From Lunularia cruciata (taxonomy: Eukaryota > Streptophyta > Marchantiopsida > Lunulariales > Lunulariaceae): a DNA stretch of 64,000 nucleotides. Each line of letters opens with the position of its first letter. Within the stretch, counting starts at the first letter, position 1. Shown in pieces: positions 7,109 through 57,560 of the stretch. The stretch lies in assembly GCA_948567375.1 (NCBI GenBank), contig OX419757.1, positions 23,554,732 to 23,618,731 of the forward strand, read 5' to 3'. Position numbers and translations under genes: made by a program. Below the pieces are notes generated by a model. The model was given only the letters and a program-made list of their open reading frames with translations, had not been told where the DNA came from and made no database searches.

Positions 7109-7127
7109 TTGGGCTAACGACAAAGCA

Positions 7128-9699: not shown

Positions 9700-9817
9700 T
9701 AACCAATTTTAGATTTGAATAGGTAGATATGAAGAGGTGCATTGTCATTTTAGATCTACAGGTTTGTAGAGTCATTAGGAAGAGGTGCATTAGGAAGATA
9801 ATTGTTGATTGTTTCAC

Positions 9818-9890
9818 TATTTAAGAGTTGCATTTGCAATATCGTGTTGTTCAGTGCTCATAATTCTAAGAATAGATAAAGCAAAGTGCT
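9818..9890 (+). promoter_or_regulatory. Putative core promoter and poly(A) region of LTR B
   Basis: A TATA-like CTATTTAAG (9818-9826) is followed ~50 bp later by AATAGATAAAGCAAAGTGCT at 9871. Both elements recur at the same place after the embedded frame in C (13334), I (38091), J and K. They are also present in the short LTRs that lack the first TATA box. I infer this is where the genomic RNA starts and is polyadenylated, which would put the embedded frame in U3. This is not proven by sequence alone. Confidence 0.4.
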
Positions 9891-19269: not shown

Positions 19270-22200
19270 AGAGGCAGGCGCGGAGCAGGGTGCCATGTTC
19301 TTGGGGAAGGGAGAGGTAGCCGAAGAAACCCAAGAAGTGAGGGATGCCTTCTCTTTGAAGAGGACAAAGAATGACTACAAAGTAAAGAGTTATAAAGATC
19401 TGGTCAAGAGAGGGATCATGAGTGCTCTCATGGCGATCCTGAAGCCGGAGAGAACGACTTATGTGATGAAATACCAAGTGGTGTTCTTCCATAAGATGTT
19501 TGCAAGAGAACCCATCAATTGGGCGAGGTGCTTCCATGAGAGAACAAGGCAGATGGTGTAGGATTTGCGGGATAAGTTGCCTCCACACTACATTGTGCCG
19601 TTTGCAGCACATTTCTACCTCGGGTTGAATTTGCTCAATGCGGCAGAGCGTAACAGAATGGTGTCTCAATTTCATCCCGACTTCAGAAAGGAAGTTGAAT
19701 GGGAAGAGCAACAGTATATTCTTTAGATCCAAAGTAGTGATGAGTACTACGCGTAGACGAGGAAGAGTGTGCAGGTAGAAGTAAGCACTCCAAAGTCAAA
19801 GAACCAGAGTCGACAAGGAGAAGGCAAAGACATAGAGAAGACAAGACCTTGGAAGATCAGGAGAAGAAACCCGAGGAAAGGTATGGTGGTGATTGAGTCG
19901 TTGGAAGAAGACTCGGAGGGCGAAGCTGAGTGCAAGTCCAAAGACTCAAAACAAAGGAAGAACCCGAGCTTACACTACAAAGTGGAGATACAAGTAGTGA
20001 TAGCGATGAAGATGGGGAGATGACGTTGGTGCCGGCAGAAGAAGAAGAAGTTTGGGTGGAGCTTGAGGAAGAGACTAATGCGAAGTTGGAGGACGAAGTG
20101 CCCGAGCCGAAGGAGAAGAAGATTATGATTTAGAGCGGAGTTTGGTTGAGGTGCAAGGCAAAGTGCAAAGCGGGTCCAAGCAAGGCAAGGGGAGAGGAGA
20201 ATGCTTGTTCGGGAAGTGAAGCGTCTATTCCGATACAACTACTGCAGAGAAGAAGGCGAGTATCGAGAGAAGAAGAGGTAAAGAAGGAGATCACTCCGCA
20301 GGTTGAAGTAGTTGCGAGTGATGGAGTGGAGTATTTGCGAGAAGTTGTGTGTCCTTTGTTTGCAAAGCTAGAGCACAAGAAGAGGGAGATGCAGTCAAAG
20401 TGTCTGGAGGTGAAGACTGTGTTGTAGGTATTAGCAAGACTGGAAGAAGAGAACTCAGAGTTGAAGAAGAGTATAATCCAAGGTGAGGAGGAAAGGGAAG
20501 TACTACGAGTGGATGTAGTAGTGCAGAGTCAAGTGATTGAGAATTTGAAGAGAGAAGCAAGGTATCAAGAGGAACTTGTGAAGCAGAGTGACATAGCAAG
20601 GGAAAGACAAGTAGCTGAGTACAAAATCTTGAAGCATCAATTTGTTGGTTCAAGACTAGAAATTATCCATGCTATGGCAAGGGTAGCAAAGAAGGACCAA
20701 GAGCTTGATAGAGTAATGGAGAGTGTAGAAGAGAAGAAGCAACTATGGCAACAGGAGTTGACAGTGAGATATAGGGAAGAATAGAGATTACAAGAGTTAC
20801 TTCGTAATCAGGAAGAGAAGGTTGTATAGAAGGAGAAGGAGAAGGAAACTATGAAAGTCGAGTTCAAAGTAGAATTGGTAATGTACCGGGAAGATTGGCT
20901 TGCAGATTGGGAGTGCGAAAGGAAGATGAGATTGGAGCCATTGAAGGAGATCATAATCAGGATGAATGCGATGCTAAGTACTGAGGCCAGTGTTCGTATT
21001 GAAGAGACGAGGCTGCACGAGTTGAAGTTGTTGGTGCAGGAGATAAGGAGGAGACATGTGAAGGATACAGATTTGAATGCATTATTGATTAGTCTCAGAA
21101 CTTGTGTAGATAGGAAGATATTAGAAGTGGAAGATAATATCACGATTAGATTAGATTTGGTAAAGTTGGAGATAGATAAACTTTGGATGTTAGAGCAAAA
21201 CCCAAAGTAGATAAAGTAGGAACGCAGATGTCTTTGGAGTTACCATTGGAGGCATTAGAGAAGAGTGGGTCAGAAGATAAGGAGTTAGAGAAGATTGGGT
21301 CAAAAGATAAGGAGTTAAAGATAAGATAGATTACCTGCAAGTGAAATGTCAGATCAGGAAAGAGAACTGTTAGATTTGGTAGAAGATGTAGGAATTATGA
21401 AACCCGAGGACAGAGCAATAGGAAGTAAAGTTACTTTGAGTTTGAGTTTGAAAGCCGAGGAAGAAGTAGACATTGGATCGGATTAATAACCAATTTGAGA
21501 TTTGAATAGGCCAATATGAAGAGGTGCATTGTCATTTCAGATCTGCAGGTTTGTAGAGTTGTTAGGAAGAGGTGCATTAGGAAGATAATTGTCAATTGCT
21601 TCACTACTTAAGAGTAGCATTCACAGTCTTATGTTGTTCAGTGCTCATAATTCTGAGAATAGATAAAGCAAAGTGCTGTGAAGTAGTGCTCGTCGCTTGA
21701 GCTTGATTCTGAGTATCAGCTTTGCAATTGTGTTTGTGAGTGTGTGGAGAAATTCAAAGTGCAAGTCAGAGTGCTTGTTGGATGTTGGATTCCGCAGCCT
21801 TGATCTTCATTCTGTGTGTTTGATCTTGAGTGAAGTGCAATCAAAGCAATGCCTTGACAGATCTGAGAGGAATTGTAGTGTTGATAGTATTGTGCATTTG
21901 TGAGTGCAATGAGAAGTTGATGTGAAGCAATTTTGATTGAGGAAGTTGTGCCTTCAGTGGAGGGGTGGAACACAATTCTGAGGTGAAGTTGTTTTGCAGT
22001 GAAGTGCCATTTTTGGGAGAGCCTGAATCATCACAATCAACATTGTTTGGAAAGAGTTGAAGGAGTTGTGATTAAGGAGTGTGAATTCATGACGAGCCTG
22101 AGAGTCAGTGCTTGTTACTCTCTTTTGGGTATGGTTTCTACCTGAGAGATTAAAGACACAACCAAGAAGAACTACAGTGTTATTGTTTGACTTTGTATTT

Positions 22201-22282
22201 GACCAATTTTGACTTGTATCTCTATGGGAACAAGCTTTACTTACCTGATTACCGCAAAAGTGATATTTGCCAAGTTGTCACA

Positions 22283-35515: not shown

Positions 35516-38500
35516 AGAGACAATAGAATTATCTTTCACCTACCACAAGTTTGAGCTCACATAATGCTAAAGAAGTGTAAGGAGAAGAGTCCCTCACTTG
35601 TAGTGAGAAATCTGGTGATTTGAAGGTTCAACATAATAGCCAAGATTGAAGTTTTGAATAGACTTTGGATCACTTTTTTGGCCTTGAACTAGAACTTGAA
35701 TTTTCTAGGGTTCATGGCAAAAGTAGCTTCAAGTGACTGTGAGGAGGGACCTAAGAATGAAGGGAAGCAAGGCAATCCGGCTTGATAGATAGAGTCAGAT
35801 TGGAGGTTGGTGCTAGGAAGAGAGGCTAGTGAGGATATTGGGGCTACATTTCTTGGGAAAGGAGAGCATGTGTAGGAGATTGATAAAATCCATAATTCCT
35901 TCACTACGCCATGTACAAGAACGGGTACAAAGTTGATACCTATTGGGACCTGGTAAGACAAAGTATTATTATGGTGATGATGGCACTCTTCAAGCATGAT
36001 TGCACCATGTATGTGATGAAGCACCAAGTGATGTTTTTCCAACAGATGTTTGCAGGAGCGCTAGTAAATTGGGTGATGTGTTTTCACCAAAGAACGTGGT
36101 AGATGGTGTGGTTTTGGAGAAATCAAGGCACTCTCCACTACTTGGTGCCATTTGCTGCACATTTCCATTTTGGTTTGAACCAGATGAAGGAAACTTAGTG
36201 AAGGAAGATAGGGTCTCACTTTCATCCAGATTTACAAAAAGAAGCAAATAAGGAGGAGTAGCAATACATCTAACATATCCAAAGTAGTGATGAGCATTAT
36301 GCAAGAATGGGACAACACATGAGATATCAATTAATATCCAAAGATGCGGAAGAGAAGAGTATGTCGCCGGTCTAGCCCAAAAAGATGAGGAAGGTGAACC
36401 CAAAGCAAGACATCATATTGATTGACGAGTCATTGGGAGCAAAAGAATCAGAAGGCAAAGTTGAGTACAAGTCAAAAGACTTGGAAGAAGAAGAAGAAGT
36501 GGAGGAAAGGATTGGCAGTGGAAGTGATGATGAAATTGAAGTTCAGCAACAAGGTGAAGATGATGCTGCCATAGAAGAACAAGAGTTCCATGCAGCAATT
36601 GACCACATGGAAGGAGGAGACATTTTGTGTCTAAAATTGCCAAGGATAGAGATAGAAGAGACTCCAGAAGCTGAGGCAAAGTTGGAGTTTCAGAAGGGTA
36701 GGAGATTGAAGAGAACTATTCCTATTGCCGGTGTGGAAACAAGCAAAGAAAGCACAATAGAGGAAGAGGGAAGAAGCTTGGATGAAATGCCCTTGAGAGT
36801 GAGGAGATTGAGACTTTGGAGTAAAGCTCCAATAGACAAAGTGAGGAGCATAGTTCTTGAAGAACCAAAGACTGTACGAGCCTTTGATGGGGTAGAGTAA
36901 TTATCATAGATAGTCTATCCCTTGTTATTACAATTGAAGAAGAAGAGAGAAGAGTTGAGAGGAATCACTCAAAACTGAAAGATGAATTGGCTGTAGTGAA
37001 GTACATGAGTGAAGAAGTTTGGAGTTGACAAGGAAGTTAATTTATGGAGAGTGGGAATTAGAAGAACTTTGGACTGAAGTAGAGCTTAGGAGGAAGGAGA
37101 TTGATAGCCTCAGAAGGGAGGAAGGAGCAGATGGCAAAGACTGAAACCTTGAGGCAGAAGTGCATGACATGCAAGTGGAAGTTATTTATTTGAAGGCTAT
37201 GGCAGCAATAATGGGACAAAGTTGGAAAGCTTGAAGACACGTGCGGCGGAGAAGGATCAAACTTGGCAAAGAGAGTTAACTATGTGAAATAGTGAGGAGG
37301 AGCAATTGTGTGGGTTGATCAAAGGAATGGAAGAGCAACTCAGGTAGTGTGAAGGAGAAGAGAGCATTAAAAGCCAAGTTGGAAGATTAGGTGAAGATGT
37401 ATTGGGAGGAGTTGCTAGTAGAGAGAGACAAGTTGTAGACACCTAGGTAGGAGATGGTCGGGGAAATAGTGATGAGAGTAAAGGCTATGCTCAACACAAT
37501 ATCTAAAGTTCAGTTGGAAGAAGTGAGACTGTATGAATTGAAATTGCTATTGTAAGAGACAATGAAGAAGAAACAAACAAATGTATAGTTGAATAAATTA
37601 TTAATTAGTCTAAGAGATGAGGTAGATAGGAAGATGTTAGAGGCGGGAGAGAATGTTTGTCTTAGATTAGATATAGCAAGACATGAGTGAGATGAGATTC
37701 AGATTCCCGATAGGAAAATCTAATGCAAAGTGGTAGAAGTAGGAGTGCAAGTTTCTTTGGATCAATTACTTGAGACATTAGAGAAGAGTGAGTAAGAAAA
37801 TAGCAATGTAAATAGATTACCCATGATCTCAATTGCACTTCATAGTGAAGAAGTGATAGAATTAGAAGAGGATGTAATAGCATAGAATGTAGTAGACCCA
37901 AAGAAGGTGAAATTTGTGAAGGAATATCAAGTTTGGAAGCCAAAGTCAAGGTTGACATCGGATTAGAGTAGTAACAATTTTGAGATTTGAAGAGGCAGAT
38001 ATGAAGAGGAGAATTGTCATTTTGGATCTACATGTTGGTAAAGTTGTTATAGAACAGTATAGTTGTTAGTTAACTATTGAAGTGCTCTACCTGTTTAAAG
38101 GAGGCATGCGCAGCAAAATATTGTTCAGTATTTATACTTTTTGAAGATAGATAAAGCAAAGTGCTGAGATCAATGCTCATTGCTTGAGCTTAATTCTGAG
38201 TATCAATCTAGTGTGTGTGTGTTTGTGTTTGTGAGTGTGGGAGAGTTTTGAAGTGCAAGTCAAGGAGCTTGTTGGGTGTTGGATTCCATATCCTTGATCT
38301 TCATTTTGTGTGTTTGATCCTAAGTGAAGTGTAATTCAAAGCAATATCATGACATATCTAAGAGGAATTGTAGTGTTGGTAGTGTTTTACATTTGTGAGT
38401 CCAGCGGAAGTTTGATGTAAAGCAGTTTTGATTGAGGAAGTTGTGCCTCAGTGGAGGGGTGGAACACAATTTTAAAGTGAAGTTGTTTTACAATGATCTA

Positions 38501-38784
38501 GCCATCTTAAGGGGAATCTAAATCATCACAATCAAAGTTGGTTTGGAAAGATTGGATAGTATTGTGATCATGGAGTGTTAGTTTGTGACAAGACTAAAAA
38601 TTAGTGCTTGTTACTCTCTTTTGGGTGTGGTTTCTACCTGAGAGACTAAAGAATAACTCAAGAAGAACTACATTGTTATTTTTTACTTTGTATTTCACTA
38701 TTTTTGACTCATATCTCTATGGGAATGAACTTTATTTACCTGATTACTGCAAGAGTGATACTTGTTGGGTTGTCACATGATTTT

Positions 38785-38802
38785 TGGCACCGTTGCCGGG
38801 GA
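38785..38802 (+). promoter_or_regulatory. tRNA-Asp-type primer-binding site after LTR I
   Basis: TGGCACCGTTGCCGGGGA lies seven bases after the LTR end. It resembles the TGGCGCCGTTGCCGGGGA site used by Athila-type and other plant gypsy elements for tRNA-Asp priming (family knowledge). Copies of the site, more or less worn, follow LTRs S and N. On the minus strand they lie beside M (51042-51059) and O (57589-57606). It defines the LTR boundary and so puts the large ORF inside the LTR. Confidence 0.8.
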
Positions 38803-39354
38803 TACAAATCTCAAAAGTAGAAGAATACAAAGCCAAATCTCACCCTAATGTTGCAATCAATATGAATGTTTACATGGAGAGAAGAACAAGAGGAGAGAGC
38901 TTATAAATGAACGTTGCAATGTGAAGAAGATGAAAATCAGAAGTGCCCAACCACAAGTGAAGCATCTGAAAAGGAGATGTTGGATCTATAGCTTCTTTAC
39001 AATGTTCAAGAAGCCTTGTAGGAACTTGAACAAAAGAAACACAAAGTTGGGTGGTAAGGATACTTTGCATCCACTAATCTCAAGAAGGAGAAAAACTCTA
39101 GCGGACAAGCATATTTGTTGTGACCCAATGCACCGAATTCCTCTACAGTTGTTAAGAAAGTCAAATTTATAAAAGAATTTATTGTGAGAAGACAACATGA
39201 CTCTTAACGGAAGAAGAGTATCAACATCTCTTACATACAATTCCTCCGTTGGCTTAAGGGAATCTTGAAGAACACTTTGAGAGCGTTGAACCTCTTCTTC
39301 TGGCTCGGGTTGAAGTTGGCTTAACTAGAGAAGAAGAATCTGCTGACAAAGGCA
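38803..39354 (+). pseudogene. 5' internal region and gag start of element I
   Basis: This follows the primer site. It aligns with 55998-56540 after LTR N. Words such as AGAGAACAAxxAGAGAGAG, a segment encoding LQEALxxLKQKK and an EEEYQHLLxTIPP block are shared. Stops interrupt all frames. At 39354 it is cut by solo LTR J and resumes at 46912. Confidence 0.5.
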
Positions 39355-42262
39355 TGTGGTGCCCACATTTTTTGTTTCTTTTCGAAATGGAGAAGAAAAA
39401 GTGTATAGAGAAGTCGGATTGCGCTTGTATGGCCAAAGAAGGCAAAGGAAAGAGTCATTAGGATGAAACCCGAGGTAACATGGCTTCGGGTCATAAGGTG
39501 AAGTACTCGGACTTGCCCTATCAGGATACAACTCAAAGTAAGAAGTCTTTGTATTAGGAGGTGCTCAACCCAAGGTGAAGACAGTGTAACAACTTTTCTT
39601 TGGGGCGAGAAATTCAAGAAGGGACCGTTCAAAAACCGGCGGTCATATGCATGAAGTACACTTGACAATGATAGGCGCATGCAAGAGGTGTGATTTCTTG
39701 GTAAAAACTTGAATTGAAAAGAGACAAAGAAGGTGTGACTCTATAAAAATAGGGCTAACAACAAAGCAATGTCGAGCAATTTTCCTTTGCCGTTGAGGAG
39801 TCGTCATGTAGGAGATCGTGGGAAGGGAAGTAGAGTTGAAGACATGCTAGTGTGTAGAGGAGAATTCAAGAGACTTAACCCAAGAGACAGTGAGGAAGCA
39901 AGAAAGATGGGAGGAGGAATGAAGAACTCCAAATTTGCAGTGAGAAATCATGCAATTTGGAGGTTAGATGTGATCGCAAGAATCAAAGTCTTGAGCCAAC
40001 TTCGGCTCATATTCTTGGCGTGGAATTGGAATGTGAGCTTTCCAGGATTCATGACCAAGATAATCAAGAGTAAATGTCTTGATGGCCCCAAGGAAGAGGG
40101 GAAGAGAGGAAATCCGGCTTGCTAGATAGAGTCAGATTGGAGATTAGTACTCGGAAGAGAGGCAGGCACGGAGTAGGGTGCCACGTTCTTGGGGAAGGGA
40201 GAGGTAGCCAAAGAAACCCAAGAAGTGAGGGATGCCTTCTCTTCGAAGAGGACAAAGAATGGGTACAAAGTAGAGAGTTACAAAGATCCGGTCAAGAGAG
40301 GGATCGTGAGTGCTCTCATGGAAATCTTGAAGCTGGAGAGAACGACTTATGTGATGAAACACCAAGCGGTGTTCTTCCATAAGAAGTTTACAGGAGAACC
40401 CATCAAGTAGGTGAGGTGCTTCCATGGGAGAATGAGGCAGATGGTGTGGAATTTGCGGGATAAGTCACCTCCACACTACATTGTGCAGTTTGCAACACAT
40501 TTCTACCTCGGGTTGAATTTTCTCAATGTGGCGGAGCGTAACAGAATGGTGTCTCACTTTCATCCCGACTTGAGAAAGGAAGTCAACACGGAGAAGCAAC
40601 AATATATTCTTCAGATCCAAAGTAGTGATGAGTACTACGTGCAGATGGGGAAGAGTGCATAGGTAGAAGTAAGTACTCCAAAGTCAAAGAAGTGGAGTCG
40701 ACAAGGAGAAAGTGAAGACGTGGAGAAGACGAGACCTTGGAAGACCAAGAGAGGAAACCCAAGGAAAGGTACGGTGGTGCTCGCATCGTTAGAAGAAGAC
40801 TTGGAGGGCAAAGCCGAGTGCAAGTCCAAAGACTCAAAACACAAGGAAGAACCCGAGCTTACACTACAAAGTGGGGATACAAGTAGTGATAGCAATGAAG
40901 GTGGAGAGATGACGTCGATGCCTGCATAAGAAGAAGAAGTTTGGGTGGAGCTCAAGGAAGAGAGTAACGTGAAGTTGGAGGACGAAGTGCTCGAGCCGGA
41001 TGAGAAAAAGATAACCATTTAGAGAGGAGTTTGGTCAAGGTGCAAGGCAAAGTGTAATGTGGGTCCAAGCAAGGCAAGGGAAGAGGAGAATGCTAGTTTG
41101 GGACGTGAAGCGTCTATTCTGATACGACGACTGCAAAGAAGAAGGCAAGTATCAGGAGAAGAAGAGGTAAAGAAGGAGATCACTACGCAGGTTGAAGTAG
41201 TCACAAGTGATGGAGTGGAGTACCTACAAGAAGTTGTGTGTCCTCTATTGGCAAAGCTAGAGCACAAGAAGAGGGAGATGCAGTCAAAGTGTTTGGAGGT
41301 GAAGACTGTGTTACAAGTGTTAGCAAGAATGGAAGAAGAGAACTTGGAGTTGAAGAAGAGTATAATCCGAGGTGAGGAGGAAAGGGAAGTTTTGCGAGTG
41401 GATGCAGTAGTGCAAAGTCAAGTGATTGAGAACTTGAAGAGAGAAGCAAGGTATTGAGAGGAATGTGACAACCCGGCAAATATCACTTTTGCGGTAATCA
41501 GGTAAGTAAAGTTTGTTCCCGTAGAGATACAAGTCAGAAATGTCCAAATACAAAGTCAAATAGTAACATGTAGTTCTTCTTGGTTGCGTCTTTAATCTCT
41601 TAGGTAGAAACCACACCCAGAAGAGAGTAACAATCACTGACTCGCAGTCTTGTCACAAATTAACACTCCATAATCACAACTCCATCAATTCTTTCCAAAC
41701 AATCTTGATTGTGATGATTCAGGCTCTCCTAAAAATGGCACTTCACTGCAAAACAACTTTGCCTCAGAATTGTGTTCCACCCCTCCACTGAAGGCACAAC
41801 TTCCTCGATCAAAATTGGTTCACATCAACCTCACATTGCACCCACAAATGCAAAATACTACCAACACTACAATTCCTCTCAGATCTGTCAAGGCATTGCT
41901 TTGATTGCACTTCACTTAGGATCAAACACACAGAATGAAGATCAAGGCTGCGGAACCCAACATCCAACAAGCACACTGACTTGCACTTTGAATTTCTTCA
42001 AACACTCACAAACATAGACATGAAGTTGATACTCAGAATCAAGCTGTAGTGAAGCAACGAGCATTGCTTCACTACACTTTGCTTTATCTATTCTCAAAAA
42101 TTATGAGCATTGAACAACATGATACTGCGAATGCCACTCTTAAATAGTGAAGCAATTGACAGTTCTAACAACTATACCGTTCTACAACAACTCTTCTAGC
42201 CTGCAGATCCAAAATGACAATGCACCTCTTCATATCTGCCTCTTCATATCTCAAAATTGTTA

Positions 42263-44824
42263 CTAGTCCAATCCGATGTCTACTTTATCTTTGGCTTTCA
42301 AACCCAAACCCGAAGTAAATTTACTTCCTACTACTCTGTCCTCTGGTTTCATACCTTCTACTTCTTCTACTAGATCCAACAATTCTCTTTCCTGATCTGA
42401 AATTCCACTTGTGGGTACCCCTTCTAAACCTTCATCTCTCGACCCACTCTTCTCTAATGTCTCCGATGGTAACTCCAAAGACATCTGCACTCCTATGTTA
42501 TCTACTTCGGGTTTGGCTCTAACATCTTTCCAAGGTTTTTCTATCTCCAATTTTACTAAGTCTAATCTAATCAAAATATTGTCTTCTACCTCTAAGATTT
42601 TTCTATCTACACGAGTCCTGAGACTTATCAGCAGCGCGTTCAAATCAGTATCTTTCGCTTGTCTTCACCTCATCTCCTGCACCAACAATTTCAACTCGTG
42701 TAGCCGCGTTTCTTCAATTCAAACACTTGCCTCTGTACTCAGCATCACATTCATTCTGAGGACTATCTCCTTCAACGGCTCCAATTGCATCTTCCTTTCT
42801 CGCTCTCGATCTGCAAGCCAATCCTCCATGTACATCACCAACTCTGCTTCAAACTTGGCTTTCACTGTTTCCTTCTCCTTCTCCTTCTATACAACCTTCT
42901 CCTCTTGATTACGAAGTAAGTCTTGTAACCTCTCTTCTTCCCTATATCGTGCTGCTAACTCTCTTTGCCAGAGTTGCTTCTTCTCCTCTACACTCTCCAT
43001 CACCCTATCGAGCTCTTGATCCTTTGCTGCTACTCTTGCCATATCATGGATAAGTTCTACTCTTGAATCAGCAAATTGCTGCTTCAAGATCTCATACTTT
43101 GCTACTTGTCTTTCCCTTGCTATGTCACTCTTCTTAATGAGCTCTTCTTGATATCTCACTTCTTTCTTCAAGTCTTCAATTACCTGAGTTCTCACTACTG
43201 CCTCCGCTTGCAGTACTTCACTTTCCTCCTCTCCTCGGGTTATGATTTTCTTCAACTCCGAGTTCTCTTCTTCTAACCACGCTAAGACCTGCAACACAAT
43301 CTTCACCTCCAAACACTTTGATTGCATCTCCTTCTTCTTGTGCTCTAACTTCACCAACAGAGGGCATACCACCTCCCATAGATACTCAACTCCATTGCTT
43401 GCTACTACCTCCTCTTGTGTAGCAACTTCTCTTTGTACTTTGTGTTCATCCAATACTCGCCTTCTTCTTTGCAGTCTTTGTATCGGAACGGACGCCTCAC
43501 TTCCCGAGCTTTTGTTTATTTCTTCTTTCATGATACTTGGACCTGCATCACACTTCACTTTTTGTCTCGAGCATACTCCTCTCTGAACTGCGATCTTCTT
43601 CTCTTCGGCCTTGGGTACCTCATCTTCCAAGTTCGTGTTGTCCTCAGCCTCGGTCTTTGCCTGCACTTCTTCTTCCTCCTCTGCAATAGCTGGCCTTGAT
43701 GTCATTGCTCCTCCTTCATCTCTGTTGCTACTCGTATCTCCACTCTATAGTGTTAGCTCGGGCTCTTCCTTTTGTTCCGAGTCTTCGGTCTTGCGCTCGG
43801 CTTCACCTTCCAAGTCTTTATCTTCCGACTCAATCACCACCATGCCTCGCCTCGGGTTTCCTCTTCTTGTCTTTTGAGGTTTTGTCTTGTCTTCGACTTT
43901 GCCTTGCCGACTTTGCTTCTTTGATTTTGGAGTACTTACTTCTATGTCCACATTCTTCCCCGTCTTCTTGTAGTACTCGTCAGTGCTTCTAATTTGTAAG
44001 ATGTATTGCTGCTCCTCTACATCGACTTCCCTTCTCAAATCAAGATGGAAATGCAACACCATCCTACTGCGCTCCGCCGAGTTCAGCAAATTCAACCCGA
44101 GGTAGAAATGAGCTGCAAACGGCACAATGTAATGTGGAGGCGACTTATCCCGCAGATTCCACACCATTTGTTGCGTTCTCCCCTGGAAACACCTCGCCCA
44201 GTTGATTGGTTCTCCTACAAAAAGCTTATGGAAGAACACTGCTTGGTGTTTCATCACATAGGTTGTTCTCTCTGGCTTCAGGATTGCCATCAGAGCACTC
44301 ACAATTCCCCTCTTGACAAGATCTTTGTAACTCTCCACTTTGTACCCATTCTTTGTCCGCTTTGATGAGAATGCATCCCTCACTTCTTGGGTTTCCTCGG
44401 CTATCTCTCCCTTCCCCTGCTCCATGCTTGCTTCCTTCCCGAGTACTAATTTCCAATCCGACTCTATCCAGCGAGCCGGATTTCCTCTCTTCTCTTCTTC
44501 CTCGGGTCCATCAAGACACTTGCTCTCGATGATCTCAGTCATGAAACCTGGAAAACTAACATTCCAGTTCCATGCCAAGAATGTAATCCAAAGTCGGCTC
44601 AAGACTTTTATTCTTGCGATTACATCTAACCTCCAAATCGCATGATTCCTCACTACAAATTTGGAGTTCTTCTTTCCTCCTCCCATCTCTCTTGCTTTCT
44701 CACTATCTCTTGGTTTCACTCTTGCGACTTCTCCCTTATACACTAGCGCGTCTCCAACTCTATTTCCCTTCCCACAATCACCTACAGGATGACTTCTCAA
44801 CGGCAAAGGAAAATTGCTCGACAT
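42263..44824 (-). pseudogene. LTR-embedded coiled-coil protein, copy K (reference copy, four stops)
   Basis: 854 codons run from ATG 44824 to TAG 42263 in one frame with no frameshift. Residues ~50-275 form a globular part: LWITFLAWNWNVSFPGFM (79-95), HQAVFFHKLFVGEPINWARCF (193-213, middle), HYIVPFAAHFYLGLNLL (231-247). Residues 298-327 are basic, 330-420 acidic. From ~470 to ~780 there is a heptad-rich coiled coil, then a tail with DNIGVQMSLELPSETLEKSG. Stops lie at 43747, 42886, 42721 and 42667. Each fits one C-to-T change on the coding strand (CAG to TAG twice, CGA to TGA twice). No known domain is certain. The N-terminal part loosely recalls plant 'putative transposon protein' domains. 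There is no signal peptide, zinc knuckle or catalytic motif. Confidence 0.8.
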
Positions 44825-44843
44825 TGCTTTGTCGTGAGCTCGA

Positions 44844-44851
44844 TTTTTATA
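44844..44851 (-). promoter_or_regulatory. TATA-like box upstream of LTR-embedded ORF (copy K)
   Basis: TATAAAAA on the minus strand, 27 bp before ATG 44824, as in copies B, F and J. The sequence between box and ATG (GACAAAGCA next to the ATG) is conserved in all four. Confidence 0.55.
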
Positions 44852-46911
44852 GAGTTGCGCTTTCTTTGTCTCTCTTCACTTTGAGTTTCTACCAAGAAAT
44901 CACACCTCTTGCATGCACCTGTCACTGTCAATCATACTTTGCATGTATGGGCCGCCGGTTTTTGAATGGTTCCTTCTTGAATTTCTTGCCCTGACAAAAG
45001 GTTGTTAGACAAACTTTGCCTCGGGTTGAGCTCCACCCGATACGAAGACTCCTTACTTTGGGTTGTATGCTGACAAGGCATTTCCAAGTACTTTGCCTTA
45101 TGACCCAAAGTCACTTTACTTCGGGTTTCATCTTGAAGACTCTTTTCTTTGCCTTCTTTGGCCATACAGGCGCAATCCGACTTCTCTATACACTTCTTCT
45201 TCTTTATTTTGAAAAAACAAAAAATGTGGGCACCACAAGGAACTTGTGAAGCAGAGTGACATAGCAAGGGAAAGACAAGTAGTTGAGTACAAAATCTTGA
45301 AGCAGCAGTTTGCTGATTCAAGACTAGAAATTAGCCATGCTATGGCAAGGGTAGCAGAAAAGGAACAAGAGCTCGATAGAATAATCGAGAGTGTAGAAGA
45401 GAAGAAGCAACTGTGGAAACGGGAGTTGACAGTGAGATATAGGGAAGAAGAGAGATTAAGAGAGTTACTTTGTAACCAGGAAGAGAAGGTTGTACAGAAG
45501 GAGAAGGAGAAGGAAACTGTGAAAGCCGAGTTTGAAGCAGAATTGGCAATGTATTGAGAAGATTGGCTTGCAGATTGGGAGTGCAAAAGGAAGATGAGAT
45601 TGGAGCCATTGAAGGAGATCATAATCAGGATGAATGCAATGCTAAGTACAGAGGCTAGTGTTTGTATTGAAGAGATGAGGCTGCACGAGTTGAAGTTGTT
45701 GGTGCAAGAGACAAGGAGGAGACATGCAAAGGATACAGATTTGAATGCATTGTTGATTAGTCTCAAAACTCATGTGGATAGGAAGATATTAGAAGTGGAA
45801 GATAATATCACAATTAGATTAGATTTGGTTAAGTTGGAGATAGATAAACTTTGGAAAAATGTTAGAGCAAAACCTGAAGTAGATGAAGTAGGAGTGCAGA
45901 TGTCTTTGGAGTTACCACTGGAGGCATTAGAGAAGAGTGGGTTAGCATATAAGGAGTTAGATAGATTACCCACTAGTGGAATGTCATATCAAGAAAGAGA
46001 ACAGTTAGATCTGGTAGAAGATGTAGGAGTTATGAAACCCGAGGACATAGCAATAGGAAGTAAAGTTACTTCGGGATCGGGTCTGAAAGTTGAGGAAGAA
46101 GTAGACATCGGATCGGATTAGTAACCAATTTGAGATTTGAATAGGCAGACATGAAGAGGTGCATTGTCATTTCAGGTCTGCAGGTTTGTAGAGTCATAAG
46201 GAAGAGGTACATTAGGAAGATAAATGTCAATTGCTTCACTACTTAAGAGTGGCATTATAGTCTTATGTTGTTCAGTGCTCATTATTTGTGAGAATAGATA
46301 AAGCAAAGTGATGTGAAGCAATGCTCATCGCTAGAGCTTGATTCCGAGTATCAGCTTTGCAATTGTGTTTGTGATTGTGTGGGGAAATTTGAAGTGCAAG
46401 TCAATATGTTTGTTGGATGTTGGATTCCACAGCCTCGATCTTCATTTTGTGTGTTTGATCGTGAGTGAAGTGCAATCAAAGCAATGCCTTGACAGATCTG
46501 AGGAATTGTACTATTGGTAGTATTCTGCATTTGTGAGTGCAGTGCGAAGTTGATGTGAAGCAATTTGGATCGAGGAAGTTGTGCCTTTAGTGGAGGTGTA
46601 GAACACAATTTTGAGGCAAAGTTGTTTTGCAGTGACGTGCCATTGTTGGGAGAGCCTAAATCATCACAATCAAGATTGTTTGGAAAGAGTTTGAGTTGTG
46701 ATTAAGAAGTGTGAATTTGTGACAAGACTAAGAATCAGTTCTTGTTACTCTCTTCTGGGTGTGGTTTCTACCTGAGAGATTAAGACGCAATCAAGAAGAA
46801 CTACAGTGTTACTGTTTGACTTTGTATCTGACCAATTCTGAATCATATCTCTATGGGAACGAACTTTACTTACCCGATTACCACAAAAGTGATATTTGCC
46901 AAGTTGTCACA

Positions 46912-48646: not shown

Positions 48647-50537
48647 TATGACAACCCGGCAAATATCACTTTTGCGGTAATTAGGTAACTAAACTTCGTT
48701 CCCGCAGAGATACAAGTCAGAAATGTCCAAATACAAAGCAAAGTAACAATGTAGTTCTTCTTTAGTCTCTCAGGTAGAAACCACACCTAGAAGAGAGTAA
48801 CAATCACTGACTTGTAGTCTTGTCACAAATTAACACTCCATAATCACAACTCCATCAAATCTTTCCAAACAATCTTGATTGTGATGATTCAAGCTCTCCC
48901 GAAAATAGCACTTCACTGCAAAACAACTTCGCCTCAAAATTGTGTTCCACCCCTCCACTACAGGCACAACTTCCTCGATTGAAATTGCTTCACATCAACT
49001 TTGCACTGCACTCACAAATGCAGAATACTACCAACACTACAATTCCTCTCAGATTTGTCAAGGCATTGCTTCGATTGCACTTCACTCAAGATCAAACACA
49101 CAGAATGAAGATCAAGGCTGTGGAATCCAACATCCAACAAACACATTGACTTGCACTTCAAATTTCTCCAAACACTCACAAACACAAGTACAACATTGAA
49201 ACTCAGAACCAAGCTCAAGCGACAAGCACTACTTCACAGCACTTTGCTTTATCTATTCTCAGAAATAATGAGCATTGGACAACAATTCTTTGCGAATGCT
49301 ACTCTTAAGTAGTAAACAAATCGACAATTCTAACAACTATACCGTTCTAGAACAATTGTTCTAACCTACAGATCCAAAATGACAATGCAACCTTTCATAT
49401 CTGTCTATTCAAATCTCAAATCGGTAACTACTCCGATCCGATGTCTACTTCTTCCTCGGCTTTCAAACCCGAACCCGAAGTAACTTTACTTCTTACTACT
49501 CTGTCCTCGGGTTTCACAACTCCTAATTCCTCCACTAATTCTAACATTTCTCCTTCCTGATATGAAATTCCTATCATAGTTAAACCTTCTAAATCTCTAT
49601 CTCCCGACCCACTCTTCTCTAAAGTGTCAAATGTCAAATCCAAAGACACATGCACTCCTATCTCTCTTACTTTGGGTCTAACTACTATCAATTCTTTTGC
49701 TAATTCTACTGTGTCATCGTCAACAATTGTAATTGAAATCGTCAACAATCTATGCCTTCAATTTGTAACCCACTTTCCTCTAATCACTCATGTTACAAAC
49801 CCAAAGACACTTACTATCTGATCTTGCACTTCGGGTTTATTCACTACTGTTACTTCTCCTTCAATTTCTATTCCATCTTCAATCTGAACTGAAATTGAAG
49901 TCATGGGTATCCTAACTATCTTCTTTCCCTACTCTAACTTCCTCTGATGCTTCCCGCAAGATTCCCAAAGTCACCTTCACAGCACTCCGAGGTCTGGTTA
50001 CCTCGGATTAAGTCATCTTCATCTTGAGGCAAAGTCTTTAGACCCAAAGTCATGTTAACCCAAAGTCCGAAGTACGAAATCCGAAGTCACATTGACCGAA
50101 GACACTTTGACCCGAAGTACATCTACTACAAAAACTTCAAATGCTTGTTACTTCTTATAAAAACCTCCAAAATTTGCAATTTTGGAGTCAATGGAAAGCC
50201 GTGAACGGGACGCTTCCAATGAGATATAACACGCTTGATTTGGAGTTGTGGTCGCTGAGATATGGCCCCCGCAAGAATCCTGACCTGCAACTTCTATTTC
50301 TCCTTCGGGTTTGCACTCCTTAACGTCTGATCCGAGTTTTTCGCTCCTCTGACACAAAGTAAGCTTCTTTGGGTCTGATCCAAACCAAACCCTTCTTCCT
50401 CTTACATGAAGTTGACTTCCTTGGGTCTGATCAAATCACAAGTTTGCATTCATTTCTTCTCCATTTGCTTTCAATATGGTTTCAGCAGTGCATTTCTTCT
50501 TCTAAACTTGTCCAAAATGAAAAATGTGTGTACCACA
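48647..50537 (-). repeat. 3' LTR (L) of the non-autonomous element
   Basis: It starts TATGACAACCC (G to A in the terminal TG/CA pair) and ends GTGTACCACA at 50537 (1891 bp). It carries the tail-only frame (49748-49428) and the block conserved with G and M at ~50211-50290. Confidence 0.85.
49428..49748 (-). pseudogene. Tail-only remnant of LTR-embedded ORF in L
   Basis: 106 codons: an acidic start (VDDDTVELAKELIVVRP), then IGVHVSLDLTFDTLEKSGSG and an end KAEEEVDIGSE. It is nearly identical to 52169-51855 in M and related to 18514-18206 in G. It corresponds to about the last 105 codons of copy K. No ribosome-start context can be judged. It is probably a relic. Confidence 0.5.
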
Positions 50538-51041
50538 TACCCCCTCCCTCAAATGTGAGCGTCTCCGCGAACACAGAGCAAGGATTTTTGTCTTTCAATT
50601 CAAGTTTTGCTCAGAGATCTGTAGTCTTCCTTCCCTCTTGTAAACTAATTTTTTTCCTTTTCCTTTTCTTTTGAACGTGGAGAATTGCAAACCAAACAAG
50701 GAGACTACCACTCCAAATCACTCCAAGATTTAAATTCATTGTCTGTGGCCCAGAAACTAAAGATGACAATTAGAACTCAAGGAAAGGTGTCTTTGGATTC
50801 ACTTTCTCATGAGATGGGTGTTAAAAAATGTTAAACGCTGGTGACCAACACAGTCTCGTGACCATTGTATGCTCCAACTCACTCCAAAAACATGATTCCT
50901 TGTCTGACTCCTCAGAGGAAGTAGACTCCTTCAAATCTTGATTTAATTCTTGAACAGTCTTGAAAATTCTCCTCATTCTCCTCCCCTATTACAACATACA
51001 ACCAAAACTTCGTATCCTTTCACTCCTGAAGATTGTATCCC
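50538..51041 (-). other. Interior of the non-autonomous element, with polypurine tract
   Basis: Next to LTR L the minus strand reads GAGGGAGGGGGTA (50538-50550), a good polypurine tract. The rest is AT-rich leader-like sequence without a frame over ~50 codons of interest. No gag similarity could be found. Confidence 0.7.
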
Positions 51042-51059
51042 CGGCAGCGGCACCAAAAA
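51042..51059 (-). promoter_or_regulatory. Primer-binding site of the non-autonomous element
   Basis: Minus strand TGGTGCCGCTGCCGGGGA, next to the end of LTR M at 51064. It matches the tRNA-Asp-like site at 38785-38802 in 16 of 18 bases. Sharing primer site and LTR ends with the long-LTR elements places it in the same family. Confidence 0.8.
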
Positions 51060-51854
51060 TCATGTGACAACCCGGCAAATATCACTTTTGCGGTAATCGG
51101 GTAAGTAAAGTTCGTTCCCGCAGAGATACGAGTCAAAAATGTCCAAATAGAAAGCAAAGTAACAATATAGTTCTTCTTGAGTTCTTCTTTAGTCTCTTAG
51201 GTAGAAACCACACCCAGAAGAGAGTAACAAACACTGACTCGCAATCTTGTCACAAATTAACACTCCATAATCACAACTCCATCAATTCTTTCCAAACAAT
51301 CTTGATTGTGATGATTCAGGCTCTCTCGAAAATGGCACTTCACTGCAAAACGACTTTGCCTCAGAATTGTGTTCCACCCCTCCACTGAAGGCACAACTTC
51401 CTCGATTGAAATTGCTTCACATCAACTTTGCACTGCACTCACAAATGCAGAATACTATCAACACTACAATTCCTCTCAGATCTATCAAGGCATTGCTTAG
51501 ATTGCACTTCACTCAGGATCAAACACACATAATGAAGATCAAGGTTGTGGAATCCAACATCTAAGAAACACACTGACTTGCACTTCGAATTTCTCCAAAC
51601 ACTCACAAACACAAGTACAACGTTGATACTCGGAATCAAGCGCAAGCAATGAGCACTGCTTCACTGCACTTCGCTTTATCTGTTCTCAGAAATAATGAGC
51701 ACTGAACAACAATTCTCTATGAATGCTTCTCTTAAGTAGTAAACAAATCGACAATTCTAATAACTATACCGTTCTACAACAATTGTTCTAACCTACAGAT
51801 CCAAAATGACAATGCAACCTTTCATATCTGTCTATTCAAATCTCAAATTGGTTA

Positions 51855-52169
51855 CTACTCCGATCCAATGTCTACTTCTTCCTTGGCTTTCAAACCCAAA
51901 CCCAAAGTAACTTTACTTCTTACTACTCTGTCCTCGGGTTTCACAACTCCTAATTCCTCCACTAATTCTAACATTTCTCCTTCCTGATATGAAATTCCTA
52001 TCATAGTTAAACCTTCTAAATCTCTATCTCCCGACCCACTCTTCTCTAAAGCATCAAATGTCAAATCCGAAGACACCTGCACTCCTATCTCTCTTACTTT
52101 GGGTCTAACAACTATCAATTCTTTTGCTAATTCTATTGGGTCATCGTCAACAATTGTAATTGAAAGCAT
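51855..52169 (-). pseudogene. Tail-only remnant of LTR-embedded ORF in M
   Basis: 104 open codons nearly identical to those in LTR L, with the IGVQVSSDLTFDALEKSGSG block and the end KAKEEVDIGSE. The two LTRs differ by scattered substitutions but both remain open over this stretch. Confidence 0.5.
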
Positions 52170-52864
52170 GGGTACACTATCTACACCTTCAATTTGTAAC
52201 CCACTTTCCTCTAATCACTCATGTTAGCAACCCGAAGACACCTACTGTCTGATCCTGCACTTTGGGTTTATTCACTACTTTTACTTCTCCTTCAATTTCT
52301 ATTCCATCTTCAATCTGAATTGAAATTGAAGTCGTGGGTATCCTAAGTATCTTCTTTCCCTACTCTAACTTCCTCAGATGCTTCCCGCAAGATTCCCAAA
52401 GTCACCTTCACGACACTTTGAGGTCTGGTTACCTCGGATTTAGTCATCTTCATCTTGAGGCAAAGTCTTTAGACCTGAAGTCATGTAAACGTGAAGTCCA
52501 AAGTACAAAATCCAAAGTCACATTGACCCGAAGACACTTTGACCCAAAGTACATCTACTCCAGAAACTTCAAATGCTTGTTACTTCTTATAAAAACCTCT
52601 AAACTTTGCAATTTTAGAGTCAATGGAAAGCCGTGAATGGGATGCTTCCAACGAGATATAACACGCTTGATTTGGAGTTGTGGTCACTGAGATATGGCCC
52701 CCGCAAGAATCCTGACCTGCAACTTCTATTTCTCCTTTGGGTTTGTCCTCCTTAACGTCTGATCCGAGTTTTTCCCTCCTCTGACACGAAGTTAGCTTCT
52801 TCGGGTCTGATCCAAACCGAGCCCTTCTTCCTCTTACATAAAGTCGACTTCCTTGGGTCTGATC

Positions 52865-53556
52865 TGTGAGCCGGCCTGTCTCTCACTCAGGATGAACCTC
52901 TGATGGCTATTATGGTAGCGCACCATGGACTAAGAAGGCAAGGAACCCGAACTCCATCATACTCCTCCAAGGCTAACACTCCAAGACTCAAGACATTGCT
53001 CACTAGAGAACTCAATGAGAGAGAGATAGTTGCAAATGAAAGGATGATGAGTACCTCCTCACCCCTTGTTTATATACTTGTGAAATAGTTACGTACCAAA
53101 GTTACTAATTACCGTAGTAACTCAAGTTACTAGACTAAAAGTCAAGTAAAGTCAAAAAGTAGAAAGGAATATCCATTCACATGGGCATATTCCTCTAAGC
53201 ATGTGGTCTTATCTTGACCCAACCACTAAGTCAAGGATGCCTTCACATGGGCTATCCTTGGACTAAAGAAGAATCCAAAACAAAAAGGCTTGCGGGCCCA
53301 AGAGTTCTCAACTCTTTCCTCAAAGCCAAACACCTAGGAATAATACCAAGTCAACACACTAAAATCAAAAATAGTGGTGCTCATCTTTTCTACTTCCTCT
53401 AAAGTAAGGTTCCCTCTATCTTAGCTATGACTAACTTTAGCTAACCATGACTAATATAGAACCATCCTTTATCTCTATATAAATAATATCTCTTAAGTAC
53501 GTGTAATACCAAGCTAAATATCACAATACCACACACATGCACAAATGGGTGTTACA
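52865..53556 (+). mobile_element. Solo LTR of family X (692 bp), target duplication GATC
   Basis: It starts TGTGAGCCGGCC and ends GGTGTTACA. GATC flanks both sides (52861-52864, 53557-53560). The empty site is seen in LTR L at ~50425 (GGGTCTGATCAAATCAC), which proves the borders. A TATA-like box lies ~80 bp before the end (~53475). A 4-bp duplication is seen; 5 bp would need one substitution. The left copy in this window is 1-603. Confidence 0.92.
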
Positions 53557-53665
53557 GATCAAATCACAAGTTTGCATTCATTTCTTCTCCATTTGCTTTC
53601 AATATGGTTTCAGCATTGCATTTCTTCTTCTAAACTTGTCCAAAATGAAAAATGTGGGTACCACA

Positions 53666-54109: not shown

Positions 54110-55972
54110 TCTCTACGAAAACGGATGGCAGTATGAAGCTTAAGATAGAGGACTTTGTATTGAGATGCACAACCCAATCCAAAGAACCTATAACAACTTT
54201 TCCTTAGGTTTAGCCAATCAAGAAAGTATGTGTAAAGACAACAACTATGTCAAGATCAAGATGACATTGAGAGTGATAGAAAATAGACACACAAAATTGT
54301 CCTATCAATAAGATCAATTGAAGAATGACCAATCAGCAAAAGAGTATAAAATTGAGACTTCATCATGGGCATTCTAAAATATCATGACAATATTGTATAC
54401 CTCTCAATAGTAATCCCAAAGGAGTTAGAATCTTAGGTTTTGGGGAGGCTTTGATCTTTCAAAGACCAAGAGTGAAGAAGCATACAATGGCCCCAAAGGG
54501 AAATAAGTAGAGTGAAGTGAGAGGTCTAGCAATTTATTGATTAGTCATAGTGGCAAGGATCAAAGACTTGAACAAATTTTGCATCTCATTTTTGGCTTGG
54601 AATTGGAATTTGAGCTTTCTAAGTTTCATGGCTAAAATTGCTACTAGCAATTGCAAAGACGGGCCCAAGTATGAAGGCAAGAAAGGAATTTTGGCTCAAT
54701 GGACTGAGTTGGATTGGAGATTAGCCCTAGGGAGAGAAACATGAGAAGTAGAGGGAGTCACCTTCTATTAGAAGTGTGAGTCTTTGGAAGAAATTGCTGA
54801 GGTGAAGAATTCTTTTAGTAGACCTTGCACCAAGAATGGGTACAAGGTGGATAGTTATAAGGACCTCATACAAAGAGGGATTGTCAATGTGATGATGGCC
54901 ATGTTTAAGCCAGAGCAAACCACGTATGTAATGATGCAGTAGGTGGTGTTTTTCCACCAGATGTTTGCAAGAGAGGTGGTAGATTGGGCAAGGTGTTTGC
55001 AACAATGCGTAGGGCATATGATTACCAATTGGAGTATGAATATGCCACCCCATTACTTTGTACCCTTTGCAGACCACTTCTACTTTGAATAAAACCTACT
55101 TAGCTTGGAGGAGAGAGGATGGATGGTATCCCAATTTCACCTTGACTTACAAAAAGAAGCAATGGAGATGAGCAATATTACATTTAGGGGGTTCAAGAAG
55201 GCAACGACTACTACCTCAAGAGAAGAAAGGAGAGGATAGTGCTAGTGACATTCCCATGCCAAGAAAGAGAAGTAGACCTGAAGGAAGAATAATGTTGATA
55301 CAACCACAAAAGATAAGAAGTGTGTTGTTATTTAGTAATGTTATTCTAAAGTTGGATAAAGCAAAGTGTTGTAACTTGGTGCTCGTTGTTTCAGCTTAAT
55401 TCCAAGTATCAATCTTGTGTGTGTTTGTTAGTGTTTGGCGAAATTAAAAGTGCAAGTCAATGAGCTTGTTGGATGATGGATTCTGTAGTGCTGATTTCAT
55501 TCTATGTGTTTGATCTTGAGTGGATAGCAATCAAGCAATGCCTTGACAGATGTGTGAGGAACTATAGTGTTGATAGTATTCTACATCAATGAGCATAGTA
55601 TGGGTTGATGCAAAGCAATTTCAATTGAGGAATTTGTGCTTTCAATGGAGGTTTGGAATGCAATTTTGAGGGAAAGTCATTTTGTGGTGAAGTAGCCTTC
55701 TTTGAGAAGAATTGAATCATCATAATCAAGATTGTTTGGAAACATTTGAAGTATTGCAATTTATGGGTGATATTTTATTGTGACAAGACTATGAATTAGT
55801 GCTTTTTTCTCTCTTTTGGGTGTGGTTTCTACCTAAGAGATTAAAGATGCAACCAAGACAACTTGACTCGTTATTGTTTAACTTTTTATTTGACCATTTT
55901 TGACTCATATCTCTATAGGAACAAGCTTTACTTGCTGATTACCACCAAAGTGATACTTGTTGAGCTATCACA
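54110..55972 (+). mobile_element. LTR copy N (subfamily 2), 5' truncated, internally deleted, followed by primer site
   Basis: Its left part aligns with 59310-60400 of LTR P. It ends GAGCTATCACA at 55972 and a worn primer site follows (55980-55997). TATAAA stands at 54355. At about 55315 it jumps from the linker part of the embedded frame to the post-ORF block (GGATAAAGCAAAGTGTTG near 55355), so the coil and tail are deleted. Confidence 0.7.
54478..55315 (+). pseudogene. LTR-embedded ORF, copy N (N-terminal half only)
   Basis: Readable pieces: APKGNK, LAWNWNLSFLSFMAKIATSNCKDGPKYEGKKG at 54590-54690 (64 open codons from 54550), NGYKVDSYKDLIQRGIVNVMMAMF at ~54835-54910, then the HYFVPFADHFYFE block near 55050 and PRKRSRPEGRI near 55255. 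Stops at several points. It ends in a deletion, so no coil follows. Confidence 0.55.
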
Positions 55973-55997
55973 TGATTTTTGATGCCACTACCAGAGA

Positions 55998-57560
55998 TAC
56001 AAATCTTGGGAGTGGAAGAATATGAAGCAAAATCTTACACTAAGTGTCCAACAAATGTCAATGTCTACATCAAGAGAACAACATGAAGAGAGAGTTTGTA
56101 AACAAACTTTGCATCATGAAGAAGAAGATGTCAGAAGAGCCAATTCATCTTTGACAAAGCTGAGAAGGAAGCATTGGATTTGCAACTTCTTTATGAAGTT
56201 CAAGAAGCCTTGAAGGACCTCAAACAAAAGAAATGAGAGGTTGGATGGAGATGCTACTTTGCATCTTTGAATCCCAAGAAGAAGAAAGATGCTAGCAAAC
56301 AAACATATTTGTTGCAACCCAGTACACCGACTTCCTTTAGAGCTATCAAGGGAGCCAATTTCATCAAAAAATTCATTTGTGAGAAAACAATGTGAATTAT
56401 AACAAAAGAAGAGTGTCAATACCTTTTACATACAAATCTTCAACTAGTTCAAAGGCATCTTAAAAAGCCATCTGAAGATATTGAACCTCTATCTCCAACT
56501 TGGGCTAAAGTTGACAAACCAACAGAAGAACAACCTATCAATGAACACCCAACTTTGAACTTGGTGAACCCCTAGGCTGATTTTGATTCACAATCACCAG
56601 CCAATACCTTGGGTCCATCAAGTCCCACATTACCATAGCCTACCCCTCATAGTTACAAAATGACTTCATTACTTGTTACTCCACAAACTTATCAAAAGTA
56701 TAAGGTGACAGAACAAGACAAAGATCCTGATGAATTCATTAAAGATTTTAAAGTCATCTCCTTTGCCAACAAGGAGCATGACTCTATGGATTGGCTGTAC
56801 ATTTTCCCAAGTCTGCTCCAAAAGAAAGCTCAGAGCTGGTACACTCATGTAACCCAAAAGAACTTCAAACCAGCTGATTAGGCAGACTTTGCAAAACAAC
56901 TTCCTTTAATGATTTGGAGAAGTGGATTATGACACAAGTGTCTTTGTGGCACTCAATGATTTGGACCAGGGAAAGAAGGCAAAGTTGAGAGACTATCTGA
57001 GTGGTTCATGGCCTTATTGAACTTGAGTTCCAAAGCAATGGTGTGGTGGGTTACTCCGATGTCCATGCCATCACTTGGTCCCTTAGTGGATTGTCACCAA
57101 AGATCAGAATTTTTGCCAAGGAGAGGAATGCAACTTCCATGGAAAAAGTACTCAAACACATCACCCAACATGAGGCAGCCTACTCTCATTCTTTTGGTAA
57201 CCAAGGAAATTGGGAAAAGAAGCCAAGAAGCCCAAACAAAGAGCTTTGTGCAGTACCTCCACTTCTTCAAAAGAATCTTTTATATCATCTTGTTCTTCTT
57301 TGGGGTTCAAAGAAGAAGTAAAGCCAAGAAGAGCCCAAAGACATGGAGGAAGGAAAACACCACCCTCTCTACCAAAACCTATACATAAGATGGACAATAA
57401 GCTAGAGACTCTTATAAAAGGGTTTGTGGATTTTAAATTCCAAATGATTGGAGCAAAGGACCAAAGAAAGCCTCTTTCATTTGGAAGACCAAATTTATGG
57501 TGCACTATGTATAGAAAATCAGGCCATGCCAACACAAAGTGTTTGCCCAAAACTGCATTT
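55998..57560 (+). pseudogene. gag: gag of element N (most complete gag of the LTR family here)
   Basis: This follows the primer site. 56660-56881 is open: MTSLLVTPQTYQKYKVTEQD, DPDEFIKDFKVISFANKEHD and IFPSLLQKKAQSWYTHVTQK, a typical gag capsid text. After a stop and a shift it continues at 57001-57321 (VHAITWSLSGLSPKIRIFAKE, MEKVLKHITQHEAAY) and then to NKLETLIKGFVDFKFQMIG near 57390. A zinc-knuckle-like CTMYRKSGHANTKC ends it near 57503-57545; the second cysteine is tyrosine. No protease or RT follows. At ~57560 the sequence turns into the minus-strand leader of LTR O. Confidence 0.7.

Follow-up and report, generated by a model that had tools for sequence, protein, structure and literature searches.

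The 64,000-nucleotide stretch of the Lunularia cruciata genome analysed here (contig OX419757.1, C6:23554732-23618731; hereafter the window) contains a long terminal repeat (LTR), LTR K, which almost certainly carries a protein gene of its own. LTR K occupies 41464..45237 on the minus strand, measures 3,774 bp (TGTGGTGCC...GTTGTCACA, with the start TGTGGTGCCCAC and the end GTTGTCACA) and is a solo LTR inserted in LTR J, as judged from its ends and flanks: no direct repeat links its own two ends, and it is bordered by the target-site duplication (TSD) AGGAA at 45238..45242 and 41459-41463, which reads TTCCT on both sides in the orientation of K. Inside it, at 42263..44824 and likewise on the minus strand, lies a frame of 853 codons plus stop, with the ATG of codon 1 at 44824 and the terminal stop at 42265-42263. 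The initial annotation of this DNA had described a frame of about 853 codons here, and its position, length and freedom from frameshifts stand, as there are zero frameshifts across the 853 codons. The frame is not open, however: four in-frame stops that the annotation had left unmentioned interrupt it at codons 360, 646, 702 and 720 (window positions 43747, 42889, 42721 and 42667). Judged by dinucleotide shuffles, it is nevertheless more than a chance frame, having 4 stops in 854 codons versus a minimum of 16 across 300 shuffles, and a longest stop-free run of 376 codons versus a maximum of 310.

A second solo copy, LTR B (6720..10497, plus strand), is flanked by TTCCA on both sides and holds the frame from 7128 to 9699, broken into pieces in three reading frames. 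In both B and K the ends and the exact 5-bp duplications place the frame wholly between the LTR ends, as had been proposed. The primer site at 38785 does follow an LTR end, that of a divergent copy, H, at 38777.

The genome (565.8 Mb, 74 contigs) was searched with the first 359 codons; of 24,879 first-look candidates, the 113 that were scored all matched at 82-100% identity, a lower bound on the number of copies. Twenty of these loci were fetched (fetched loci are designated L plus a number). A full-length LTR holding the frame was present in 19 of them, counted at L016 and L020 as the neighbour of the queried match, while the LTR of L010 is in two pieces. Sixteen of the 19 look solo: 13 have exact 5-bp duplications (8 found by script in register and 5 by eye, in L014, L017, L019, L023 and L024, where the CA end has become TA or the TG is altered), and three have one mismatch (L005, L013 and L020). 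As for the remaining three, L008 is followed by a primer site, and L006 and L007 come after the purine tract TTTGAGGGAGG[G/T]GGTA, L006 with an apparent primer-site remnant past the LTR end. The primer site of the family is TGGCGCCGCTGCCGGGGAT, which I take to resemble the tRNA-Asp type. A 32-base pattern of LTR end and primer site has 392 exact matches genome-wide (197 and 195 on the two strands; reversed control, 0 and 0), and at seven of the first eight primer-site loci the C-terminal part of the frame comes shortly before that pattern and has the same orientation (amino-acid identity 43-80%), L032 having a remnant only.

In L008 and L034 the primer site, gag, protease and reverse transcriptase (RT)-RNase H come after a frame-bearing 5' LTR, and the integrase is in the adjoining L033 and L007. 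The domain matches in L008+L033 and L034+L007 are Retrotrans_gag (1.9e-11), RVT_1 (4.4e-23), RT_RNaseH (9.5e-31) and rve (6.5e-10), and a weak protease match (0.0053, below its cut-off); the order gag, protease, RT, RNase H, integrase is that of Ty3/gypsy elements. Elements with primer site and gag-pol therefore carry the frame in their LTR, and, as the initial annotation had argued, it is not an internal-region gag, because gag-pol is read behind the frame-bearing LTRs. The element at C1:8406573-8420107, read at both ends with its middle part and pol outside the fetched sequence, combines two LTRs, TG..CA ends, the 5-bp TSD GGTGG/GGTGG, a primer site with gag (L027) and a purine tract with the 3' LTR (L043). 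A full-length element with the frame between its LTRs had been named as the case that would speak against an LTR gene; this element, with its exact TSD, has the frame in both LTRs instead. Its LTR pieces are identical at 95.4% (2,339 bp), 96.1% (280 bp) and 97.7% (1,035 bp), with a ~0.19 kb deletion in the 3' LTR copy of the frame and stops in both copies. In 5' LTRs the gene comes before the primer site, and in 3' LTRs it comes after the purine tract. Since it is in both LTRs of this insertion, and elsewhere in the LTR ahead of gag, protease, RT and RNase H, it is not an internal gene; the complete frame is inside the LTR, as in an accessory gene of the sag type.

A reading in which the LTR ends are mistaken, and an ordinary internal gene sits between undetected short repeats, was first suggested by the last 430 bp, which are common to all LTR classes of the window and looked like a short LTR; no other support for it was found. 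The lack of a direct repeat between the two ends of K, the target duplications at both ends, the primer site after the same 3' end and the purine tract before the same 5' start all argue against it, and the presence of the unit twice in C1:8406573-8420107 already refutes it, so that I give it virtually no chance.

The frame is protein-coding. Among 21 LTR copies (210 pairs), the NG86 ratio of nonsynonymous to synonymous divergence (dN/dS), the check that the initial annotation had called for, has a median of 0.206, far from 1 (range 0.13-0.56, median dS 0.48), and the regression is dN = 0.052 + 0.091 dS, while the other two sense frames, used as a control, give 0.74 and 0.98. Identity at codon positions 1, 2 and 3 is 0.877, 0.901 and 0.772, and codon 1 is ATG in all 21 LTRs of this set (ATA in window copies A and N). 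The most constrained part of the protein, codons 55-290 (43955..44662, minus strand), has a median dN/dS of 0.14 and a dN-on-dS slope of 0.023. Window copies A, B, G, J and K show ratios of 0.17-0.50 (10 pairs), and frame remnants in the short LTRs F, L and M compared with these five give 0.51-1.20 (15 pairs).

Conservation is high in the noncoding LTR flanks too (pairwise identity of ~0.85-0.93 per 100 bp), which would suit constraint on cis signals in DNA or RNA, with the open frame as a side effect and no protein encoded. This reading is very improbable in view of the three-base periodicity, of indels relative to K that are multiples of three in 42 of 67 cases inside the frame versus 5 of 133 outside (23 copies; the events share ancestry), and of a median of 6 stops per copy versus 83 and 45 in the other sense frames. 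Strongly diverged copies in the window, moreover, still show 33-56% amino-acid identity piece by piece, with synonymous sites saturated or nearly so.

The two LTRs of C1:8406573-8420107 differ at 28, 22 and 33 sites by codon position, with a dN/dS of 0.42, while the frame of this element has ratios of 0.14-0.18 against K, L015 and L021 and of 0.36-0.40 against its close relative L016. The low dN/dS between elements and the higher value within one insertion show that purifying selection maintained the protein along the lineage that replicated, and that individual insertions afterwards decayed in a nearly neutral way. Constraint on the frame is about equal to that on gag. Frame codons 617-853 could be compared with gag in seven elements, across which the two dS values increase together; in the 15 pairs of six elements (L008, L034, L025, L026, L027 and L029, leaving out the divergent L031) the frame has the lower dN/dS in 12.

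The gene also extends to a second subfamily, for which the query L005:4923-6149 gave 22,544 first-look candidates and 102 scored matches. Its protein starts MPSKFPIPLSS in the four of four copies that reach the start, parallel to MSSNFPLPLRS, and two matches lie 2,772 and 2,773 bp upstream of listed primer-site matches (C1:64633165 and C1:76551823).

Within the window, LTR A (644..4419, minus strand) carries the frame at 4003-1440, and no target duplication was seen around it. LTR J (39355..46911, plus strand) is split by K into ~39355-41463 and 45238-46911 and itself lies within the internal region of H. The detected part of LTR E+G (16817..22282, plus strand) is split by the short LTR F (~17402-19252). 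The divergent element H (35585..38803, plus strand) has frame pieces at 35585-37876 (34-49% amino-acid identity to K) ahead of its LTR end and primer site, and element N (54379..57329, plus strand) has the frame start at 54379-55158, an LTR end at 55972, a primer-site-like sequence and gag-like remnants at 56453-57329. A short-LTR element on the minus strand at 48649..53665 consists of the 5' LTR M (51063 to ~53665, an upper end that is inferred, with other repeats inside M), a primer site at 51055, a purine tract at 50550 and the 3' LTR L (50537-48649). Its internal part is ~0.5 kb, without gag-pol, and the frame is present as a remnant only. L and M are frameless and 92% identical, and this element is a non-autonomous derivative of the same family; the frameless LTRs F and L measure ~1.85 kb and 1.89 kb. 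Downstream of J, in the presumed internal region of H, minus-strand reading frames at 47700-48500 repeat KGF/RSLKGFGRQ-like units. Elsewhere in the window, 27409-29409 (plus strand) belongs to a different Ty3/gypsy-like element and encodes RT-RNase H-integrase and an H2C2 zinc-binding domain, its RT-RNase H being 37% identical to that of L008, and 31868-33819 (minus strand) holds a broken reverse transcriptase unlike that of the LTR element, possibly of a non-LTR element (RVT_1, 1.3e-07 for 32983-33819). Scans of the window against Rfam and for tRNAs found nothing.

Two promoter-like boxes bear on where in the LTR the gene would lie. P1, a predicted TATA box (CTATAAAAA; 44844..44852, minus strand, LTR positions 386-394), has the first T of its TATAAA 27 bp ahead of the ATG of the frame. 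Each base of this TATAAA is conserved at 91-100% in 23 LTRs, and counterparts stand 34 bp ahead of codon 1 as TATAAAA in copies N and P and as TATAAGA in the four second-subfamily copies that reach there. P2, a TATA-like TATTTAA (42140..42146, minus strand, LTR positions 3092-3098), lies beyond the frame in an alignment of 17 long and short LTRs, with TTGTTCA starting 29 bp further on; among the frameless LTRs, F and L032 also have the box, and L and M have it as TACTTAA. If P2 served as the genomic promoter and P1 as the promoter of the frame, the frame would be placed in U3 (the unique 3' region) with a promoter of its own, and I somewhat favour this arrangement.

A placement in R and U5 (the repeat and unique 5' regions) was adopted at first, as P1 precedes the frame, and was given up when alignment with frameless LTRs made two promoters likelier. 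Here a single promoter, P1, would start the genomic RNA, the frame would come first, in R/U5 before primer site and gag, and gag would be reached by splicing, re-initiation or an internal entry site. P1 is indeed strongly conserved, LTR K has no other TATAAA box outside the frame, and the only TATAA of the short LTR L is near position 379, although it is altered in F and L009. What frameless L and F have in common with K, however, is limited to roughly 40-47 bp at the start and 1,050 bp at the end, and includes P2; a single promoter would also put an 853-codon frame ahead of gag in the genomic RNA. It is accordingly the less probable arrangement, though one to be taken seriously.

No credible homologue of the protein, and no source gene, was found in Pfam, among PDB sequences or in a set of 5.8 billion proteins. 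The weak Pfam matches T4BSS_DotI_IcmL (0.034) and YwqJ-deaminase (0.0036) are both below the cut-off and were taken as chance, and the PDB matches (E 0.22 and 0.27) are at chance level. An origin by duplication of gag was not supported. AlphaFold models are of low confidence (mean predicted local distance difference test, pLDDT, of 38.5 and 52.8), and a Foldseek search with such a model gave no match at E <= 0.001; codons 55-290 are predicted, at low confidence (mean pLDDT 53), to be mostly helical. By composition, the protein has an N-terminal domain with 8 Trp, an acidic linker and a stretch of ~250 residues almost without Pro and Gly, windows over codons 505-756 having at most 1% Pro+Gly and 38-46% charged residues. 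A basic stretch, IQRLQRRRRV, occupies codons 448-457 of K and varies in other copies. The label of coiled-coil protein, given in the initial annotation, gained no support from heptad power in the C-terminal part, which was not above that of shuffles in any of 19 windows.

A further possibility is that the protein is a far-diverged extra frame of the Tat/Athila kind (plant mobile domain, Transposase_28 or Athila ORF-1) that moved from the internal region into the LTR. The primer site, presumably tRNA-Asp-like, would fit, and I find the N-terminal domain, linker and charged tail reminiscent of such frames. The element has the usual Ty3/gypsy genes, and extra frames are described as common in that group in the available text of PMC6317226. 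Pfam-A scans of 18 family members and six further pieces gave, however, no match to PF10536, PF04195 or PF03078 among the matches listed up to E 10, HMMER filters dropping most above ~0.1 and the inclusion of each of the three models in the library being unchecked. The extra frames of plant LTR retrotransposons are, in the portions available, assigned to the internal region, on either side of gag-pol (PMC7264820; PMC6317226). I consider this origin unlikely.

The same elements (Grande, RIRE2, Retand, Ogre and Athila, with their eORF or aORF frames) resemble the present one in having a conserved accessory frame of unknown function beside Ty3/gypsy gag-pol, as far as the available text goes (PMC7264820; PMC6317226), and differ in that theirs is internal, while the present frame sits within each of the two LTRs and shows no match to the Pfam domains of those frames. 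Athila internal frames are under purifying selection in a comparable pattern, according to the part of PMC2410132 available. ORF0 of Retrosat2, RIRE3 and RIRE8 is similar in its LTRs of over 3 kb and a fast-evolving extra frame upstream of gag-pol, and different in being upstream of ORF1 and confined to grasses; the available text of that report (PMC3485330) gives no LTR location. Phrase searches of one open-access library, a scope with subscription papers and repeat libraries such as Repbase outside it, yielded no published plant LTR that holds an entire gene, and priority is not claimed.

By position, the nearest analogue would be the sag gene of mouse mammary tumour virus (MMTV), which lies in U3. 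Retroviral nef is likewise an accessory frame, overlapping U3 of the 3' LTR, but is only partly in the LTR, its 5' LTR copy being incomplete, whereas the present gene is whole within each LTR. The MMTV gene, too, is encoded by the LTR and present in each LTR copy, as given in the available text of PMC12548423 (see also the accessible part of PMC11998498). It belongs to a vertebrate retrovirus and its protein is unrelated as far as Pfam shows; Pfam scans gave weak unrelated families only and no Sag homology, the presence of a Sag model in the library being unchecked. The present gene, in contrast, has 853 codons, a Ty3/gypsy-type element around it and a conserved, predicted TATA box of its own.

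Taken as a whole, it is likely that a Ty3/gypsy-type LTR holds a sense-orientation gene of ~853 codons, more probably than not in U3 with its own promoter, and perhaps with an accessory role. Several observations weigh against this explanation. Noncoding LTR flanks read as codons give NG86 ratios of 0.47-0.68, so that the method has a neutral baseline under 1, only slightly above the 0.42 found within one insertion; a stop-free whole frame occurs in none of the 21 LTR copies, which have 3 to 16 stops each. P2 is TATTTAA in only 8 of 17 LTRs, TACTTAA in 5, another variant in 3 and missing in N. P1 is 27-34 bp before codon 1, so transcription from it would begin about at the ATG, and H and C showed no P1-like box ahead of their guessed starts, where the cut at guessed positions makes the absence uninformative. 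The dS of the frame exceeds that of gag in all 15 pairs, by 1.1 to 2.9 fold, and for L008 versus L034 the internal genes (gag, protease, RT-RNase H and, from L033 versus L007, integrase) have dS of 0.09-0.24 and dN/dS of 0.42-0.92, near the neutral baseline. L034 and L007 abut as 5' LTR, internal region and 3' LTR, with LTRs 87.7% identical, a frame dN/dS of 0.25 and unmatched outer flanks. Finally, L032 has a primer site and a stop-free gag stretch behind a frameless LTR, and the element formed by L and M lacks both frame and gag; gag-bearing elements that lack the LTR gene have therefore moved, and the gene is not needed in cis.

Some of these points have explanations of their own. L034 and L007 were rejected as a single element, and since a matching TSD is missing and the LTRs have diverged, the pair is probably a recombinant of two elements. 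The whole frame of L008 versus L034 has a dS of 0.42 and a dN of 0.10; because this dS exceeds that of gag-pol, elements may have exchanged LTRs and internal regions, which would then have partly separate histories. The 3' noncoding LTR flanks of the elements compared with gag diverge by only 0.04-0.10, and, speculatively, the excess synonymous divergence of the frame reflects escape from homology-dependent silencing.

Under the preferred explanation of a U3 gene with its own promoter, the frame would be transcribed from P1 at LTR position 386 and the genomic RNA would begin at P2, at ~3092, with gag as its first frame. The gene would be carried once per genomic RNA, within the 3' LTR, and reverse transcription would copy it into both LTRs, making each LTR, solo ones included, a self-contained expression cassette. 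The product can tentatively be regarded as a trans-acting accessory factor of replication, and as such would most likely be nuclear, given the conserved and probably helical N-terminal domain, the acidic linker, IQRLQRRRRV and the long, charged, helix-prone tail; activation of its own promoter, anti-silencing and nuclear entry are conceivable roles. It is quite possible, at slightly less than even chances, that the terminal repeat is a self-contained U3 gene, comprising promoter, frame and signals downstream of it, which solo LTRs keep after the loss of gag-pol, and that this dispersed trans-acting reservoir could serve autonomous members.

LTRs are usually regarded as noncoding, and extra genes are looked for in the region that they enclose. 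Reverse transcription doubles a conserved LTR gene, the formation of solo LTRs leaves it in place, and pipelines that mask LTRs would miss it. It raises the questions of how a gene placed before the start of the genomic RNA would be expressed, and whether solo LTRs may be a source of trans-acting factors for living elements.
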